Assembly (NCBI GenBank): GCA_902788415.1
Contig: CADAKF010000003.1
Span: forward strand, 1 to 35,931
Direction: 5' to 3'
DNA from: an uncultured bacterium
Lineage (GTDB): Bacteria > Verrucomicrobiota > Kiritimatiellia > RFP12 > UBA1067
DNA: 35,931 nucleotides
Shown here: positions 4,819-35,362 of the stretch, piece after piece
Layout: each line of letters starts with the position of its first letter
Position numbering within the stretch: the first letter of the stretch is position 1
Made by a program: the position numbers and the translations under genes
Notes under the pieces: model-generated
The model's input: the letters and a program-made list of their open reading frames with translations, nothing else
Databases searched by the model: none
What the model was told of the DNA's origin: nothing

Positions 4819-5739
4819 TCACTTCACCTCCATCGCAATCTTTTTCATGAGTGCCGCCTCATCGTCCGTCACGTAGTCAGGCTTGTAGCCGACCTCGGAG
4901 ACGTCGACGTCGAAGAGGGCCTTCGCCCACACGAGCGCCTGGAAGTACTCGCCCCTCCGTCCGAGATGGAAAACATCGCAGTTCGGCACCCACTTATTCT
5001 CCGCGTTCCGCTTGAAATGATCCTTCGGATCCTCGTAGCCGCCGCCCACGACATCCCCTCCGAGCGAGTTCTCCCCGTACTTGACCGGCAGCTGGCGGCG
5101 CCAGGCTTGCACGGCCGTTCCGAAGGGAATCACCTGCAGCCCGTACTGCTTCGCAAAGTCGCCGTAAGCCGCATGCAGCTTCGCGTACATTCCATTCTGG
5201 TCAATCCCCCACTTCGCGAGCCGCTTGTCCCAAGGCGTGTAGCTCCAAGTCTCCTGGACAACGATCTTCGCCTGCGGCGCGAGTTCGCGGATCTTCGTGA
5301 CCAGGTTGTCGCCGTACGGATGGTAGGACTCCTTCCGCCAGCTCTCGTGGCTGCCCTGCTGGATGGTGATGATGTCCCACTTCGTCCCCGCAACGACTTC
5401 GCGGAGGTTGCGGTGCGACTGAAAGACGATGCGCTTGCCGCGGTCGTACAGGTCGTAGGCGTAGGGACGGAAGTCGGCGGCCGTGTTGGTCACGTTCGCC
5501 CAATGGCGCTCCAGCGTGCAGCCGCCGATGTAGAGCGAGCCGATGTTCAGCTTGACGCCGCGGTCCTCCGCCAGCAGGGGCAGGTGGTTGAGCACGCAGA
5601 TGGAGAAGCTATTGCCAATCATCAGCACCTTCACCGTCTCCGCATCCGCGTTGGCCTTCTCCTCCGCAGACTTGCAGCCAGACGTCAGACAAACGCCAAA
5701 GGCCAACAGCCAGCCGCTAACAGCTAACGGCTTTTTCAT
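4819..5739 (-). CDS. SGNH/GDSL-hydrolase-like lipoprotein, DUF4886-like
   Basis: 306 residues. The N-terminus is a lipoprotein signal, with hydrophobic core WLLAFGV and lipobox LTSG-C (Cys22). KVLMIGNSFS (37-46) resembles block I of DUF4886/SGNH hydrolases with Ser44 as probable nucleophile; WDIITIQQGSHES resembles a later SGNH block; DVFHLGRRGEYFQALVW near the C-terminus offers the Asp-x-x-His pair. It is probably an envelope-anchored esterase or carbohydrate deacetylase, but the substrate cannot be read. The ATG overlaps the rlmI stop codon (ATGA), with AAGGAGG (5745-5751) inside the end of rlmI, so translation is coupled; the stop lies one base before the adaptor gene. Oddly, codons 3 to about 16 of the signal peptide coincide with six tandem 7-bp repeats (5692-5733). 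Confidence 0.82.
   Translation of the reverse strand: MKKPLAVSGWLLAFGVCLTSGCKSAEEKANADAETVKVLMIGNSFSICVLNHLPLLAEDRGVKLNIGSLYIGGCTLERHWANVTNTAADFRPYAYDLYDRGKRIVFQSHRNLREVVAGTKWDIITIQQGSHESWRKESYHPYGDNLVTKIRELAPQAKIVVQETWSYTPWDKRLAKWGIDQNGMYAKLHAAYGDFAKQYGLQVIPFGTAVQAWRRQLPVKYGENSLGGDVVGGGYEDPKDHFKRNAENKWVPNCDVFHLGRRGEYFQALVWAKALFDVDVSEVGYKPDYVTDDEAALMKKIAMEVK
5692..5733 (+). repeat. Six degenerate heptamers encoding a signal peptide
   Basis: Read on the plus strand, 42 bp divide into six 7-bp units: AACGCCA, AAGGCCA, ACAGCCA, GCCGCTA, ACAGCTA and ACGGCTT. Five of the six end in GCYA. The block equals 14 codons and encodes residues 3-16 of the lipoprotein signal. The unit resembles that at 29832-29866. 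Confidence 0.75.
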
Positions 5740-7010
5740 GACAACCTCCTTAAAATGACTCCTTTGAGATACAAACCTTCCGGAAAGTTCAGCGCGACGG
5801 GATGATCCGCGCCCTGACGCGTCCGCCCGACCATCTGAAAGTCACGACGCGCGTCGACCGCCGCCTCCGCGAGCACCTTGTCGAACAGGTCGGACGTCAT
5901 CGCGCCCGAGCAGGAGAACGTCGCCAGGATCCCGTTCGGCCTCAAGAGCTTCATCGCGAGGAGATTGATGTCCTTATAGCCCCGCGCCGCCTTCTCGACC
6001 TGCGACTTGGTCGCCGCGAACTTCGGCGGATCAAGGACGACAAGGTCGAACGCCTTCCCCTCGTCGCGGCACCTGCGCAAATACTGGAAGACATCCGCCT
6101 CGACAAAGTCAAACCGCCTCCCGTCTTTAGCCTCAGGCCCTCCGCCAAACGTCAGCTCGGCATTGCGCCGCGCAAGCTCCAGCGCGTCGCGGGAGATGTC
6201 GACCTGCGTCACGTGCTTCGCACCGCCCGCCGCGGCCGCGAGACCGAACCCGCCCGTGTAGCAGAAGCAGTTGAGCACCTCGCGGCCCTTCGCAAACGCC
6301 CCCACCGCGGCCCGCGCGTCGCGCTGATCAAGGTAAAAGCCGGTCTTGTGTCCTTTGCGCACATCGACAAAATACCGAATGTCCCCCTCTTTGATCTCAA
6401 TCAGCTCCGGCGGCTCTTCGCCGGTCAAACATTCCAATCCTTCCAAACACTTCAAGCCTTCCTTCGCCCGCACATCAACGTCCGTGCGCGCGGAAACGGA
6501 CAAGGGCGCGGCCCCTGCGGGGAAGTTCGCCATCAGCGACTGGACAATCTCGTCCTTCCAACGCTCCGCGCCCGCGCTTGTGAACTGGCAGATGACATGT
6601 CCGTTGTAATAGTCGGCAACCACGCCGGGGAGTCCGTCGGATTCGGCATTGATCACGCGACAGGCATTTGTCGTCGACTCCGGCGCAAAAAAAGCCGCAC
6701 GGCGCGAAATCGACAGCGCAACCAGCTCAGCGACGAAAGCGCCGTCCGGGACCCTCTTCGGGTCAAACGACAGCATCCTGACACGAATCTGGCTCGCCGG
6801 CGAATAGCTGCCGTACCCGAGCGTCTCGCCTTCGGCGCTTACGACCTCGACCGTCTCGCCAGAGAGTGGGGAAGCGGAATCCTTTCCGCTTCCAGCAAAG
6901 GCAACGTCCGCTATTGCCCCGCTAAAAACCCATGGATGGTGCTTGCGGACGCTGTAGTCCCTTTTCGGCCTTAGGCAAATCTTGTGCACATTCGCTAACA
7001 GCTCTCTCAC
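5736..7010 (-). CDS. rlmI: 23S rRNA m5C methyltransferase, RlmI-like
   Basis: 424 residues from GTG 7010, which overlaps the iorA stop codon; a second GTG at 6989 would give 417. An earlier in-frame ORF inside iorA is out-of-frame translation of iorA. RDYSVRKHHPWVFSGAI and YGSYSPASQIRVRML match the N-terminal PUA domain of E. coli RlmI. FVDVRKGHKTGFYLDQRDARAAV, VLNCFCYTGGFGLAAA (SAM-binding loop), FDLVVLDPPKFA and LATFSCSGAM form the Rossmann methyltransferase domain; the last should hold the catalytic cysteine. It should methylate a cytosine of 23S rRNA; RlmI or a sister SAM-dependent rRNA methyltransferase is possible. Two in-frame repeats interrupt it: the palindromic element near residue 40, giving GSGKDSASPLS, and two 18-bp repeats (6430-6465) giving GLKCLEGLECL. 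Its end carries the ribosome-binding site of the next gene. Confidence 0.9.
   Translation of the reverse strand: MRELLANVHKICLRPKRDYSVRKHHPWVFSGAIADVAFAGSGKDSASPLSGETVEVVSAEGETLGYGSYSPASQIRVRMLSFDPKRVPDGAFVAELVALSISRRAAFFAPESTTNACRVINAESDGLPGVVADYYNGHVICQFTSAGAERWKDEIVQSLMANFPAGAAPLSVSARTDVDVRAKEGLKCLEGLECLTGEEPPELIEIKEGDIRYFVDVRKGHKTGFYLDQRDARAAVGAFAKGREVLNCFCYTGGFGLAAAAGGAKHVTQVDISRDALELARRNAELTFGGGPEAKDGRRFDFVEADVFQYLRRCRDEGKAFDLVVLDPPKFAATKSQVEKAARGYKDINLLAMKLLRPNGILATFSCSGAMTSDLFDKVLAEAAVDARRDFQMVGRTRQGADHPVALNFPEGLYLKGVILRRLS
6430..6465 (+). repeat. Two 18-bp (four 9-bp) tandem repeats in rlmI
   Basis: Four 9-bp units, CATTCCAAT, CCTTCCAAA, CACTTCAAG and CCTTCCTTC, form two 18-bp copies that differ at several bases. 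In the minus-strand frame they encode the GLKCLEGLECL segment between the PUA and methyltransferase domains, where RlmI homologues vary. Confidence 0.6.
6865..6891 (-). repeat. Palindromic in-gene element, copy 1 (in rlmI)
   Basis: 27-bp unit whose core AAGCGGAATCCTTTCCGCTT (6872-6891) has two perfect 8-bp arms around a 4-base loop. Read in the rlmI frame it gives SGKDSASPL near residue 40, between GAIADVAFAG and GETVEVV. E. coli RlmI (from memory) has a few residues there. Confidence 0.9.
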
Positions 7011-11495: not shown

Positions 11496-13522
11496 TTGCG
11501 TTTCTTCAGCTCCTTGATCTGATCACGAAGATACGCCGCCCGCTCAAACTCCAGGTTGTCCGCCGCCTCCAGCATGTCCTTCGTGAGTTCGGCAATCAAG
11601 TCAGCCGGCGAGGACTCTCGACCCGAGACAGAAGACGAACCCGTCCGCTGTACGACTTCGACTCCCGATTTCGACTTAAAGACATATGCCGACTCATTGA
11701 TCGCCCTCTTCACCGAATGCGGCGTAATCCCATGCTCTTCGTTATATTTAATCTGCTTCTCGCGGTGCCCTCTCGTGATCCTGAGCAAATCCCGGATCGC
11801 GTCCGTCTGATGGTCGGCATACAGAATGACACGTCCCTTCTCATGCCGCGCCGTGCGCCCCGCAGTCTGCACGAGCGACGTCGTCGACCTCAGGAACCCC
11901 TCCTTGTCCGCGTCGAGAATCGCCACAAGCGCAACCTCCGGAAGGTCCAGTCCCTCCCGGAGCAGGTTGATGCCCACCAAGACGTCGAACTCGCCCTTCC
12001 GAAGCCGCTGCAAAATCGCCACGCGCTCGATCGCGTCGATGTCGCTGTGCAGGTATTCAACGCGAATCCCCGCCTCGTGCAGATACTGGCTTAAATCCTC
12101 CGCCGACCTCTTCGTCAGCGTCGTCACCAAAACCCGCTCGCCCAGTGGAGAAGCGGAATCCTTTCCGCTTGTAGAAGAAGAACTCCGTGGACCATTAACA
12201 ACCTTCTCAATCTCCCCTATCAAATCATCGATCTGCCCCTTCAGCGGCCTGATCTCGATCTCGGGATCCAAGAGTCCCGTCGGCCGGATCACCTGCTCGG
12301 CGACCGTCTTCGCCTCACCATACTCGTAGTCGCCCGGCGTCGCCGAGCAGTAGACGATCTGCTTGACCTTCGCGTTAAACTCGTCGAAGGTGAGGGGGCG
12401 GTTGTCCTTGGCGCTCGGCAGCCGGAAGCCGTAGTCGACGAGTTTCGTCTTCCGCGCCTGGTCGCCGTTGTACATCGCGCGGATCTGCGGAACCGAGACG
12501 TGACTTTCATCGATGATGGTGAGGAAGTCGTCCGGGAAGTAGTCTATGAGGCACTCGCCCGCCGAACCCGGGGCGCGTCCCGTGAGCGGCCTCGAGTAAT
12601 TCTCGATGCCGTTGCAGTAGCCGAGCTCGCGCATCATCTCGATGTCGTATTCGGTGCGTTCGCGAAGCCGCTGCGCCTCGAGGAGCTTCCCCTTGGACGC
12701 GAAGAACTTGAGCCGTTCGTCGAGCTCGGCCTCGATGCGCTTGAACGCCGCCTCGAAACGGTCCTTGCCCATCACAAACTGCTTCGCGGGCGTAATGACG
12801 ACGGTCGGCATCGTGACGCCACATTTGCCCGTGAGTGGATCCAGCTCCCTTATCGAATCGACGTCATCGCCAAAAAACTCGACGCGAATCGCCTTCGTCT
12901 CGTACGCAGGGAAGATGTCCAGGACGTCGCCCCTCACCCGGAACGTCCCCGGCTGGAAGTCAAAGTCATTCCGCGTATACTGCGCCTCAACGAGCTCGGC
13001 GATGACCCCACTTCTTCCTCGACCTAGACCTCCGACCTCGACCTTGACCGTAAGGTCCCTATACTCATCCGACTCCCCCAACCCGTAGATGCAGCTCACG
13101 GACGATACGACGATCACGTCCTTCCGTGCGATGAGCGCATTTGTCGCGGCAAGGCGGTAACGCTCGATTTCCTCGTTGATGGACGCGTCCTTCTCGATGT
13201 AGGTATCGGTCTGGGGGATGTAGGCTTCGGGCTGGTAGTAGTCGTAGTAGGAGATGAAGTACTCGACGGCGTTTTCGGGAAAGAACTCCTTCAGCTCGGC
13301 GAAGAGCTGCGCGGCGAGCGTCTTGTTGTGGCTCAGGATCAGCGTCGGACGATTCCACTTGGCGATTAAATTCGCCATCGTGAAGGTCTTGCCCGACCCC
13401 GTGACACCCTGCAGGATGAGGCGATCTTCGCCGCGCTTCAGCCCCTCGTAAAGCGCCGCGATCGCCTCCGGCTGGTCTCCAGTCGGCTTGAATTTCGACT
13501 TCAGCTTGAATATTTCGCCCAT
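11492..13522 (-). CDS. uvrB: Excinuclease ABC subunit B
   Basis: 676 residues, the usual UvrB size. Walker A GVTGSGKT (39-46); the damage-binding beta-hairpin YFISYYDYYQPEAYIPQTDTYIEKD (about 87-111); the DESH box; motif RVLVTTLTKRSAEDLSQYL; QTAGRTARH; and a C-terminal UVR motif (AADNLEFERAAYLRDQIKELK) for UvrC contact. It verifies DNA damage with UvrA and loads UvrC in nucleotide excision repair. The palindromic element sits near residue 451, so that NGPRSSSSTSGKDSASPLG replaces the short loop before RVLVTTLTK. Heptamers (11613-11640) fill the linker before the UVR motif, and a GACC-rich repeat (13021-13049) encodes VEVGGLGRGRSG. The -10 element lies 8 nt before the ATG, so the mRNA should be nearly leaderless. 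Confidence 0.98.
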   Translation of the reverse strand: MGEIFKLKSKFKPTGDQPEAIAALYEGLKRGEDRLILQGVTGSGKTFTMANLIAKWNRPTLILSHNKTLAAQLFAELKEFFPENAVEYFISYYDYYQPEAYIPQTDTYIEKDASINEEIERYRLAATNALIARKDVIVVSSVSCIYGLGESDEYRDLTVKVEVGGLGRGRSGVIAELVEAQYTRNDFDFQPGTFRVRGDVLDIFPAYETKAIRVEFFGDDVDSIRELDPLTGKCGVTMPTVVITPAKQFVMGKDRFEAAFKRIEAELDERLKFFASKGKLLEAQRLRERTEYDIEMMRELGYCNGIENYSRPLTGRAPGSAGECLIDYFPDDFLTIIDESHVSVPQIRAMYNGDQARKTKLVDYGFRLPSAKDNRPLTFDEFNAKVKQIVYCSATPGDYEYGEAKTVAEQVIRPTGLLDPEIEIRPLKGQIDDLIGEIEKVVNGPRSSSSTSGKDSASPLGERVLVTTLTKRSAEDLSQYLHEAGIRVEYLHSDIDAIERVAILQRLRKGEFDVLVGINLLREGLDLPEVALVAILDADKEGFLRSTTSLVQTAGRTARHEKGRVILYADHQTDAIRDLLRITRGHREKQIKYNEEHGITPHSVKRAINESAYVFKSKSGVEVVQRTGSSSVSGRESSPADLIAELTKDMLEAADNLEFERAAYLRDQIKELKKRK
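11613..11640 (+). repeat. Four degenerate heptamers in the uvrB linker
   Basis: Units GACTCTC, GACCCGA, GACAGAA and GACGAAC, all beginning GAC with a strict 7-bp period. In the uvrB frame they encode the Ser-rich SSSVSGRES segment before the UVR motif. Confidence 0.65.
12144..12170 (-). repeat. Palindromic in-gene element, copy 2 (in uvrB)
   Basis: 27-bp unit with core AAGCGGAATCCTTTCCGCTT at 12151-12170. In the uvrB frame it reads SGKDSASPL. UvrB proteins I recall have a short charged loop at this place, directly before the conserved helicase motif. Confidence 0.92.
13021..13049 (+). repeat. GACC-rich quasi-tandem repeat in uvrB
   Basis: GACC recurs at 13021, 13027, 13034, 13040 and 13046, at steps of 6 or 7 bp. 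It encodes the Gly-rich VEVGGLGRGRSG segment in the frame of uvrB. The period is not strict, so this is weaker than the other repeat blocks. Confidence 0.4.
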
Positions 13523-27891: not shown

Positions 27892-29818
27892 AATCTTGCT
27901 GACGAAGGAGTGCGAAAATTTCAGGGTCGCGTTCACGGAAGGCACGGAAGACCTCCAACGCAGATTTGGATCCACCAAGCGCCAGCACCGTCTCGCGGTA
28001 TTTCGCGCCGACGCGCCGCATCGCCTCATCATCATCAAGGCCTGCCTCCTCAAATGCCCCGAAGCAGTCCGCACTCATCACCTCCGCCCACTTGTATCCG
28101 TAATACCCCGCGGCATATCCGCCCGCGAAGATATGCGTAAACGCGCACAGAAACCGGTTCCCCTCGATCATCGGCAAGCCAAAATGCCCGAACACCTCGC
28201 GCTGACACGAGAACGGAGAAGCGGAATCCTTTCCGCTTGAATGAAGGAGGACATCCACTTTCGCGAACGCCAGCTGCCTCCGGCAGGCCGTCGCCGCGCG
28301 GAAGTTCTTCGCCGCGCGCACCTTCGCCTTCAGCTCTGCTGGAACGGCGATTCCCGTTCTGTCATCAAGACACCAGTTTTCCATGAACTGACTCGCGACC
28401 TCCACGGCATCCCACTCGACGAGATTAATCCCCGCCGCGTCTTCCTCTCCGACCCGCGTCAGCATGCATTGCAGCGCATGCCCAAACTCATGGAACAGCG
28501 TCTCCACCTCCCGAAACGGCAAAAAGCACTTACCATTCTCGTCCTTTTTCGGAAAGTTCGTGACAACCACAGCAAGAGGAAGCGTCCGCTGCTCGACTTC
28601 GCCTTCGACCTTCACCTCCCTCCGATTCCTGAACTCATTCATCCAGGCGCCGCCAGACTTGAGTCCCGAACGCACGAACGGATCGAAATAGAAGTTGGCA
28701 ATGGTCTCGCCCTTCTCCTTCACCGCGAAGAACCGCACGTCCTCGTGCCACACGGACGGCTTGTCCGCCACCTCCTCGACATCCACGTCGAAAAGGAACT
28801 TCACCATCCGGAAAAGCCCCTTCACAACATCCTCCAGCTCGAAGTGCTTCTTCAGCTCCTCCTCGCTGTAGGCATACTTTTTTTCCCGCAGACGCTCGGC
28901 CTCATAAGCCAAATCCCAAGGTTCGCCGTCCAACCTCTCCTCTTCCGCCTTTCCCTTCGTCGCCGCATCGAGGTCGTCGATCATCTTCATGACCGCAGCG
29001 ACGGACGGCGCGCACTTCGTCGCGAGCGATTTCTCGGCGTAGTTCTTAAAGCCCAGGATCTCTGCCTCCTCTTGGCGGAGCCTCAGGATTTCCGCAATGC
29101 GCGGCTCGTTCTCCGGCGCCCGCGCGGCTCGCGCCCGATAGAGCTTCTCGCGCACCTCGCGGTCCGCACAGTGCTTCATCGTCTCGGGATAGTTCGCGTC
29201 ATCGATCGTATAGGTCTTTCCGTCCTTCTCGTACTTGAACGCCGCCGTCGCGTCGATGACCGTATTATGGAAGTCCGCCCCGAGCTTCGCGAGCTTCATC
29301 TGGATCTCGTTGAAACGCTCCTTCTTCACGCCTTCAAGCCCCACGCCGGCGAGCTCCGCCCCCTGCGCCATCTTCTCCAAAATCCGACGCCGCACAGAAA
29401 AAATCAAACCATTCTGCACATGGTCGGATGGTCGGTTGCTCCGATGCTCCGATGACAAATCGCCTTTCAGCGACTCCGCGTTCAAAATCGATTTTGCCGT
29501 CTCATACAACCTCTTCGACTGACTCACCCTCAAGCTAAACGCCACGATCTTCGGCTGCCACTCCTCCTCGACCTTGCGCCACGCCTCGGAGTTCATCACG
29601 CCGAGCATGTGCGAGACCATACCCCAGCACCGCCACAGCCCCCGCGTCGCATCGTCCAACTTCCAGACAAAGTTCTCGTAAGAGAGTGGAGAAGCGGAAT
29701 CCTTTCCGCTTCCCGCCGCCTCGATCGCGGCGACCGCCTTCTCCGCCTCATCCAAGAGCCGCGGCAGTTCCGCCGCGGCGAACTCCGGGGTAAAATCTTT
29801 CCAATCAGGAAAACTCAT
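27884..29818 (-). CDS. M3-family zinc oligopeptidase (oligoendopeptidase / oligopeptidase A type)
   Basis: 644 residues from ATG 29818 with GGGAG just upstream. The frame stays open to 30478, but that part is out-of-frame argF. The zinc motif HEFGH (443-447) lies in VETLFHEFGHALQCML, and the C-terminal FTHIFAGGYAAGYYGYKWAEVMSADCFGAFEEAGL is the M3 substrate-binding signature. It should cleave short peptides in the cytoplasm. Three repeats are built in: palindromic elements near residues 36 (GSGKDSASPLS) and 527 (SSGKDSASPFS), and an 8-bp repeat (29421-29452) encoding SSEHRSNRPSD near residue 125. The second palindrome lies in a variable stretch before the signature, where homologues such as OpdA have more residues. 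It follows argF by 41 nt; the gap is a heptamer repeat. Confidence 0.94.
   Translation of the reverse strand: MSFPDWKDFTPEFAAAELPRLLDEAEKAVAAIEAAGSGKDSASPLSYENFVWKLDDATRGLWRCWGMVSHMLGVMNSEAWRKVEEEWQPKIVAFSLRVSQSKRLYETAKSILNAESLKGDLSSEHRSNRPSDHVQNGLIFSVRRRILEKMAQGAELAGVGLEGVKKERFNEIQMKLAKLGADFHNTVIDATAAFKYEKDGKTYTIDDANYPETMKHCADREVREKLYRARAARAPENEPRIAEILRLRQEEAEILGFKNYAEKSLATKCAPSVAAVMKMIDDLDAATKGKAEEERLDGEPWDLAYEAERLREKKYAYSEEELKKHFELEDVVKGLFRMVKFLFDVDVEEVADKPSVWHEDVRFFAVKEKGETIANFYFDPFVRSGLKSGGAWMNEFRNRREVKVEGEVEQRTLPLAVVVTNFPKKDENGKCFLPFREVETLFHEFGHALQCMLTRVGEEDAAGINLVEWDAVEVASQFMENWCLDDRTGIAVPAELKAKVRAAKNFRAATACRRQLAFAKVDVLLHSSGKDSASPFSCQREVFGHFGLPMIEGNRFLCAFTHIFAGGYAAGYYGYKWAEVMSADCFGAFEEAGLDDDEAMRRVGAKYRETVLALGGSKSALEVFRAFRERDPEIFALLRQQDLI
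28212..28238 (-). repeat. Palindromic in-gene element, copy 3 (M3 peptidase, C-terminal part)
   Basis: Core AAGCGGAATCCTTTCCGCTT at 28219-28238 is intact; the flank reads AACGGAG instead of AGTGGAG, so the peptide is SGKDSASPF. It lies near residue 527 of the M3 peptidase. Confidence 0.9.
29421..29452 (+). repeat. Four 8-bp tandem units in the M3 peptidase gene
   Basis: TGGTCGGA, TGGTCGGT, TGCTCCGA and TGCTCCGA, 32 bp with a strict 8-bp period. In the minus-strand frame they encode SSEHRSNRPSD, a segment I do not expect in the M3 family. Confidence 0.7.
29685..29711 (-). repeat. Palindromic in-gene element, copy 4 (M3 peptidase, N-terminal part)
   Basis: Core at 29692-29711 with the full AGTGGAG flank; the flanking AGAGAGTGG and CC also match copy 1. 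It encodes SGKDSASPL near residue 36, between AVAAIEAAG and SYENFVWKL. Confidence 0.92.
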
Positions 29819-34280: not shown

Positions 34281-35362
34281 GTCTTTTGTCCTTCTTTTTT
34301 GACGAGTCGCGCGAAGACCTCCCCGCGCTCCCCATAACTTTTAAACTGATCAAAACTCGCAGCTCCGGGCGACAGCAGCACCGTCTCTCCCTTCGCCGCC
34401 TCGCGCCTCGCCGCCTCCACCGCCCGATCCAGCGTCTCGCAGATTTCACAATCTACCACACTGCTCCAGGCCGCGAAAAAGGCTTTCGCGCTCTGCCCAA
34501 TAAGATACACTTTTTTGACCCACTCTGTCAAGGCGGAGAGTGCCATCTTTGGATCGTCGCCTTTCGGCAGCCCGCCGGCGATGAGACGAACGCCTGAACC
34601 CGCCATCTTCACGCCGGCAACAAGCGCCGCGATCGAAGTGGCCTTGGAGTCGTCAATATAACGCACACCGTCAATTTCGGCGACAAGATTCATTCGGTGC
34701 GGCAGCGGTCTGAACCCACGGAACGCCTTTGCGATCGCCGCGTCTTCCAAACCCGCCACGCGCATCAGGTCGACCGCAATCGCCGCATTCCCCGCCAAAA
34801 TGTCATTGTCGAAATAAGAATCCACCCACAAAGTGGAGAAGCGAAATCCTTTCCGCTTCAGCCCATCCGACTCCCCTCCGACGAACCCCTTCCTTGCAAA
34901 AGTCAACAGCTTCCGCTTCAGCCCGTGATAAACCTCGACGCTCCCATGTCGATCGAGATGGTCTTCCTGCAAGTTGAGGATCGCCGCGGCTTCGAATGTG
35001 TCCGGCGGAAGCGTCGTCGTCTCCAACTGGAAGGAACTGACCTCCACGACCGCCCAACCAGGTTTCTCCGAAACGAGGTCCGTCACGGGCCGTCCGTAGT
35101 TCCCGCACGGGACGCCGCCAATCGCGTCCGCGACAAGTTTGACAATGGAGCTCTTCCCCTTCGATCCCGTCACGGCCAGAAGCTTCCAGCCGCGGCGTTT
35201 CAGCTCCTCGCAGCCGAGCTGCAGTTCACTCTTCGTCCGAAGTCCCGGACTCACGACAACGCAGTCGTATCCGTCCGCAAAGTCAACCTCGTATCCCTGC
35301 GCCCTCAGATGCGCAGCCGCGGCCGTGCCGCTTTTCCCCGTGCCTAGAACGAGCGCCTTCAC
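34277..35362 (-). CDS. murD: UDP-N-acetylmuramoyl-alanine:D-glutamate ligase (compact MurD)
   Basis: 361 residues from GTG 35362, which overlaps the upstream stop codon (GTGA); MurD is usually about 440. The ATP loop reads VTGSKGKSS, followed by EVSSFQLE, LNLQEDHLDRHGS, RYIDDSKATS and LLSPGAASFDQFKSYGERGEVFARLV, all Mur-ligase signatures and MurD-type at the C-terminus. It adds D-glutamate to UDP-MurNAc-L-Ala in the cytoplasm. The N-terminal domain is shortened (GYEVDFADGYDCVVVSPGLRTK), and part of the central domain is missing. In its place is the palindromic element near residue 169, read in a frame different from the other copies (LKRKGFRFST). GLKRK occurs twice, at about 148 and 168. The active site looks intact. 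Confidence 0.93.
   Translation of the reverse strand: MKALVLGTGKSGTAAAAHLRAQGYEVDFADGYDCVVVSPGLRTKSELQLGCEELKRRGWKLLAVTGSKGKSSIVKLVADAIGGVPCGNYGRPVTDLVSEKPGWAVVEVSSFQLETTTLPPDTFEAAAILNLQEDHLDRHGSVEVYHGLKRKLLTFARKGFVGGESDGLKRKGFRFSTLWVDSYFDNDILAGNAAIAVDLMRVAGLEDAAIAKAFRGFRPLPHRMNLVAEIDGVRYIDDSKATSIAALVAGVKMAGSGVRLIAGGLPKGDDPKMALSALTEWVKKVYLIGQSAKAFFAAWSSVVDCEICETLDRAVEAARREAAKGETVLLSPGAASFDQFKSYGERGEVFARLVKKEGQKT
34832..34858 (-). repeat. Palindromic in-gene element, copy 5 (in murD, different frame)
   Basis: Core AAGCGAAATCCTTTCCGCTT (34839-34858) has one mismatch to the consensus; the AGTGGAG flank is intact. In murD it reads LKRKGFRFST instead of SGKDSASPL. Confidence 0.85.

Follow-up and report, generated by a model that had tools for sequence, protein, structure and literature searches.

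A stop-free palindromic repeat read in six frames in and between the genes of an uncultured Kiritimatiellia bacterium

The window, a stretch of 35,931 nucleotides from the draft genome of an uncultured bacterium of the Kiritimatiellia (contig CADAKF010000003.1 of assembly GCA_902788415.1), carries near its end a gene whose product is identified as MurD by NCBIfam TIGR01087 (258.6 bits, cut-off 211.95). Embedded in this gene is one instance of a repeated unit of 27 bp, AAGCGGAAAGGATTCCGCTT followed by CYCCACT, in which a 20-bp palindromic core is joined on one side by a 7-bp non-palindromic tag. The core starts exactly at a codon boundary and is read K-R-K-G-F-R-F-S-T. The open reading frame and the alignment to the unit thus bear out what the sequence-only reading of this stretch had claimed, namely that the murD copy encodes KRKGFRFST instead of SGKDSASPL and has one substitution in its core. 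This substitution, C15T, is the only mismatch between the copy and the unit; it does not alter the residue encoded in the murD frame (synonymous, TTC to TTT), retains a G.U pair in RNA and occurs in 4/126 cores of the genome. For the murD copy, the predicted fold has 9 bp in its stem and 4 nt in its loop (-14.5 kcal/mol, z -2.2). Another copy (L019:390-409) combines C15T with the right flank CTCC(A/G)CTTTGT of the murD copy and is a possible sister copy; C15T in both may derive from a shared source copy, as the matching sequences suggest.

A 24-bp pattern of the unit occurs five times in the window, always on the minus strand, against 0.00 occurrences expected in shuffled sequences; the murD occurrence (34835-34858) has one mismatch. 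In uvrB and in the three copies within two other host genes of the window, reading of the unit starts one base further on than in murD and yields S-G-K-D-S-A-S-P-(L/F).

Table 1 Copies of the 27-bp unit in the window and associated features of murD
Feature	Position	Strand	Remark
Host gene murD, 361 aa	34277..35362	-	ORF; short linker common to genus
27-bp copy in murD	34832..34858	-	murD codons 169-177; sequence AAGCGGAAAGGATTTCGCTTCTCCACT
20-bp palindromic core AAGCGGAAAGGATTTCGCTT in murD	34839..34858	-	frame +0 from codon 169, with C15T
7-bp non-palindromic tag CTCCACT adjoining the murD core	34832..34838	-	flank of core
15-bp look-alike GGGCTGAAGCGGAAG in murD	34910..34924	-	native murD codons (..GLKRK..), outside the element
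Copy in methyltransferase gene (PF10672 plus PUA_3)	6865..6891	-	frame +1, SGKDSASPL
Copy in uvrB	12144..12170	-	frame +1; clean 16-aa (48-bp) insertion versus genus orthologs, PRSSSSTSGKDSASPL
Copy in M3 peptidase gene, second insertion there	28212..28238	-	frame +1, SGKDSASPF
First insertion in the M3 peptidase gene of the preceding row	29685..29711	-	frame +1, SGKDSASPL

The murD copy had further been described as sitting where this short MurD lacks part of its central domain, next to a 15-bp sequence that recurs nearby. Both descriptions hold as observations and fail as indications of a special role of the element. Solved MurDs do have about 35 residues more than the window MurD across the linker. 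However, the linker measures 18-33 aa (median 23) in 25 same-genus orthologs and 27 aa in the window MurD, and because these orthologs are equally short the element is not the cause of the shortness; loss of a domain through the element was accordingly rejected. The element is simply located in a hypervariable linker. The 15-bp recurrence likewise exists, but its distal occurrence consists of native LKRK codons that resemble the element: it encodes HGLKRKLL where most relatives have HALKRRLL, and up to 13/15 of its bases match in relatives that carry no element. The GGGCTG that precedes the unit in murD is found at this copy alone among 127 copies, and this extra match would be either a coincidence or a trace of the copy's arrival.

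In the genome from which the window derives (a draft of 1.90 Mb in 147 contigs, 83% complete) we found 144 copies of the unit with three or fewer mismatches, 67 of them forward and 77 reverse, and 135 at one mismatch, whereas a reversed control sequence gave no match at three or fewer mismatches. Neither 57 relatives nor 161 further genomes of the order yielded any copy. The exact 27-mer was likewise absent from the contigs of a genome collection of 84,980 species, and the unit from viral contigs, both collections being ones that may omit entries for this genome or its closest kin. In the species collection the best match to the window UvrB was 59% identical and came from the Puniceicoccaceae, with the same possible omission of close entries; it points only to a verrucomicrobial relationship. 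One draft genome, 83% complete, is the basis for the restriction of the unit to one species. In 1.37 Mb read of a same-genus genome (G017), another abundant hairpin, AAAAGGTCCAACCTTT / AAAAGGTATAACCTTT, has about 32 copies (L171-L250).

Flanking sequence could be read for 127 distinct copies, and it reveals a recurrent architecture. The tag CYCCACT (AGTGGRG on the other strand) is present in 90/125 copies with a readable tag. Singlets bear one of several left modules, e.g., TTGCGCTTCGCTTAC or GTCCACGGAGTCGTTTTTTCAC; the left module GCGCTTCGCTTA lies within 50 nt of a hairpin in all of its 20 occurrences and GTCCACGGAG in 13 of 14. We considered and rejected the possibility that these modules are independent repeats: as they occur almost only next to the hairpin, they are regarded as part of the element. 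Seven canonical inverted dimers with outward-facing tags each span 83 bp, including a 29-bp spacer of variable sequence, and fold into long hairpins (-41 to -64 kcal/mol). We do not use spacer covariation as evidence that a long hairpin is conserved, as complementarity within pairs does not exceed chance (permutation p 0.92, n=7). Overall, outward dimers of canonical spacing number about eight among the 127 copies, the rest being singlets, arrays and other arrangements. Some copies form tandem arrays: at L053:3027-3205 and 4970-5091 the hairpin is part of repeated units of 51 bp, or 17 codons, which apparently lie in coding sequence.

Reading frames were assigned by two routes, a codon-usage model applied to both flanks and protein homology, chiefly to the G017 genome, and the two were concordant for nearly all copies. 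A coding frame was obtained for 58/127 copies: 34 in frame +1, 14 in -2, four in -1, three in +0, two in -0 and one in +2. A further 17 copies are intergenic and 52, at contig ends, in arrays or at gene ends, were given no frame. The murD frame (+0) recurs in ribF, with the identical peptide KRKGFRFST, and in a GH97 glycosidase gene; frame -0 is used in nth and a rluA-type gene, frame +2 in a GT2 gene, and frame -1 in hosts that include an MFS transporter gene. In an MFS-family membrane transporter (L043:1376-2788) the reading is the hydrophobic WRSGILSA. None of the six frames of the unit's consensus contains a stop codon, so that in-frame insertions are tolerable. The use of the frames is nonetheless strongly uneven. 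Among the 43 independent single insertions of our tally, in which arrays and dimers are counted once, the six frames are represented 27/6/4/3/2/1 times (chi-square p ~3e-13 vs uniform). Two readings, SGKDSASPL in the sense orientation (frame +1) and SGEAESFPL in the antisense, account for 33 of the 43, and both favoured peptides are of a small and hydrophilic, Ser/Gly/Pro type. All seven dimers share one register (p ~0.001 for three registers), with SGKDSASPL as the reading of the right arm in every case.

The 20-bp core is exact in 111/126 copies, among them 14/16 of the intergenic ones and 34/34 of those in frame +1, compared with 77/92 outside frame +1. Substitutions affect 9/2016 stem positions and 9/504 loop positions, those of the loop being mostly A9G. 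Because none of the nine stem changes across the 126 cores is compensatory, these rates fit a conserved hairpin and a recognised linear sequence alike. The tabulation across the genomic copies shows all six frames and intergenic positions in use, so that the refuting condition named by the sequence-only reading, a single frame for all copies, does not hold. From this use of the same DNA we conclude that conservation does not lie in the peptide. This upholds one half of the proposal that the DNA or RNA hairpin, and not the peptide, is conserved; the other half, that constraint at the peptide level is absent, is not supported, the use of frames being so biased. The DNA is the conserved entity, and a filter at the protein level probably decides which insertions survive, although the bias could alternatively stem from an insertion-site preference tied to codon phase.

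Comparison with orthologs indicates what the copies add to their hosts. Occupied and empty sites were compared at the protein level, the DNA of the relatives being too diverged to give exact ends or target-site duplications. In-frame insertions were found in conserved genes including uvrB, queA, argS, proS, purB, obgE, clpX and that for topoisomerase IV subunit A, and several host proteins other than UvrB are longer by 8 to 30 aa, in frame, than those of one relative. The 16 extra residues of the window UvrB are absent from most of 27 genus orthologs. Compared with G017, QueA and RsgA, each with a dimer, have about 30 and about 19 extra residues, respectively, and the gain amounts to 8 to 17 residues for ArgS, PurB, ObgE and an RdgB/HAM1-family protein. 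Some copies, including that in murD, bring little net gain (+3 to +4 aa), and the gain is also small in nth and rluA; either host sequence was lost at these sites or a variable site has drifted. The uvrB gene of another genome, G032 (L144), has an unrelated short insert, NPNLQPQPLTSS, at the same site as the window element, and because this ortholog bears a different insert there, the site is considered tolerant.

A search of the genome with PF01797 for a mobilising enzyme returned one long RAYT-like gene and fragments. The best NCBIfam match of this gene (L334, G000:C77:8392-9426) is REP_Tyr_transpos at 49.5 bits, compared with a cut-off of 80. It reaches the contig end, its 3' side being absent from the assembly, and its ends are inverted repeats of the GAGGGTCTGACCCC / GAGGGTCTGACCCCAATGGTG type, unlike the hairpin unit, of which no copy lies in the upstream flank that was read. 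Given the different terminal repeats, the hairpin-free flank and the occurrence of a 97%-identical piece of the protein (L336, G032:C91) in G032, a genome with no hairpin copies, we do not accept this gene as the partner transposase. The UvrB proteins of the window species and G032 are 84% identical, and the higher identity of the RAYT-like piece suggests a recent transfer of this gene. Many short N-terminal remnants of the gene are scattered across the genus.

We propose that the unit belongs with the REP/REPIN and RPE elements, as a short mobile palindrome that is non-autonomous. It would be DNA that undergoes copying and recognition, namely the 20-bp hairpin core with its one-sided 7-bp tag. 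Recent multiplication in one species would have produced the approximately 140 copies, as singlets with a left module that varies, arrays and 83-bp dimers, which landed in and between genes on either strand, stop-free frames rendering in-frame insertion tolerable. Bland Ser/Gly/Pro linkers would survive most often, and readings of another kind, among them the KRKGFRFST of MurD, would persist at tolerant sites, e.g., variable linkers; we infer that selection causes the frame bias. By analogy with REP systems, a tyrosine transposase (Y1/HUH, RAYT-like) that works on hairpins in single-stranded form may move the unit in trans, a step to which we give, at best, about an even chance.

Several other explanations have to be weighed against this mobile palindrome. 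If the conserved thing were a peptide linker, SGKDSASPL, spread by gene recombination, off-frame copies such as that in murD would be rare accidents. The preponderance of this reading, in 27/43 single insertions and in the right arms of all dimers, and the invariance of the core in frame +1 speak for such a linker. But 16 independent single insertions fall in five other frames, so that the frame table largely refutes it; moreover, the core is equally conserved in the 17 intergenic copies, and it shows no synonymous changes in frame +1, where constraint on a peptide would permit them. We regard this linker explanation as very improbable. Somewhat less improbable, but still highly unlikely, are two explanations that invoke a cellular function. 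A near-invariant 20-bp palindrome dispersed over both strands could be bound by a protein of the host (a nucleoid organiser, segregation factor or methylase) and be under selection at the chromosomal level. Host-protein binding sites usually persist in a genus, however, and the unit is absent from all searched same-genus relatives; its copies, moreover, bring additional DNA and tags and form arrays and dimers of fixed spacing, which speaks against an origin by point mutation. Equally unlikely is an element acting in mRNA, where a hairpin influencing stability, processing or translation would have spread through that function. The favourable predicted folds of the murD copy and the dimers, and the G.U pair kept by C15T, agree with a role in RNA, but the use of both gene strands, the position of copies deep inside open reading frames and the lack of compensatory stem changes do not, and Rfam identified only a tRNA in the window and no known RNA family for the unit.

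In a metagenome-assembled genome, an adapter-like artefact of assembly or library preparation also deserves attention. Contigs C13, C101 and C102 end in or beside a copy, as would be expected for any repeat, and some bases are N-masked. However, for copies in genes the frame is almost always the same before and after the unit (48 copies by the codon model, with few discordant), host proteins continue past the unit, and the existence of several left modules and of a fixed 29-bp dimer spacer also speaks against an artefact; we regard this origin as exceedingly improbable. An unlikely, though more credible, possibility is that the unit represents a new class of hairpin for which coding sequence is the normal habitat, stop-free and encoding bland linkers in its two most frequent readings, and that it is spread by an enzyme not yet known. 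As a mobile palindrome of the REP/RPE kind, which we favour, the unit would be a fresh, nearly undiverged case of selfish DNA in genes outside Rickettsia, with one unit read in six frames in dozens of hosts. It would amount to a natural experiment in what peptides a protein can accommodate where an insertion occurs, bears on whether mobile palindromes can supply new protein segments and raises the question of what moves small hairpins that lack the known REP tags.

Among known systems, REPINs and intragenic REPs (PMC3116915, PMC3733652) and the RPEs, the classic in-gene palindromes (PMC3767692), offer the closest comparisons. Like REPs and REPINs, the unit has a hairpin core of about 20 bp in high copy (144 in 1.9 Mb) with a one-sided tag, occurs as singlets, tandem clusters and outward-tagged inverted dimers with a variable spacer of fixed length (PMC3116915), and is abundant in one genome and patchy among relatives. 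It differs in its tag, CYCCACT/AGTGGRG instead of GTAG or CGTC, and in the predominance of singlets, REPIN families being mostly doublets; because the GTAG/CGTC tag and the doublet majority are lacking, it is not a proven REPIN. No RAYT gene was found beside the copies in the 83%-complete genome. REPs, the repetitive extragenic palindromes, are characterised by an extragenic location, whereas at least 58/127 copies are intragenic here and 17 intergenic. Copies within genes have nevertheless been reported for REPs; they are most numerous in Opitutus terrae, a verrucomicrobium (GTAG type), and in Rickettsia conorii (CGTC type), and dimeric ones encode 20-30 aa (PMC3733652). The TIRYT/TIR families (PMC3733652) similarly have self-complementary ends that occur as singles, dimers and groups, and the present genome does hold a RAYT-like gene; by visual comparison, however, no clear sequence similarity links the ends of this gene (GAGGGTCTGACCCC...) to the unit, and GGGGWSAS is unmatched. 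Rickettsia RPEs and Wolbachia WPEs are likewise palindromes that lie in frame inside genes without destroying them and also occur between genes (PMC3767692), a likeness at the level of description. RPEs are described as 100-150 bp long and common to species at the same sites (PMC3767692), whereas the present unit has 27-50 bp (83 bp in dimeric form) and is so far confined to one species. Taken together, these comparisons make it likely that the unit represents a new REP/RPE-like family that underwent a recent, species-restricted burst.
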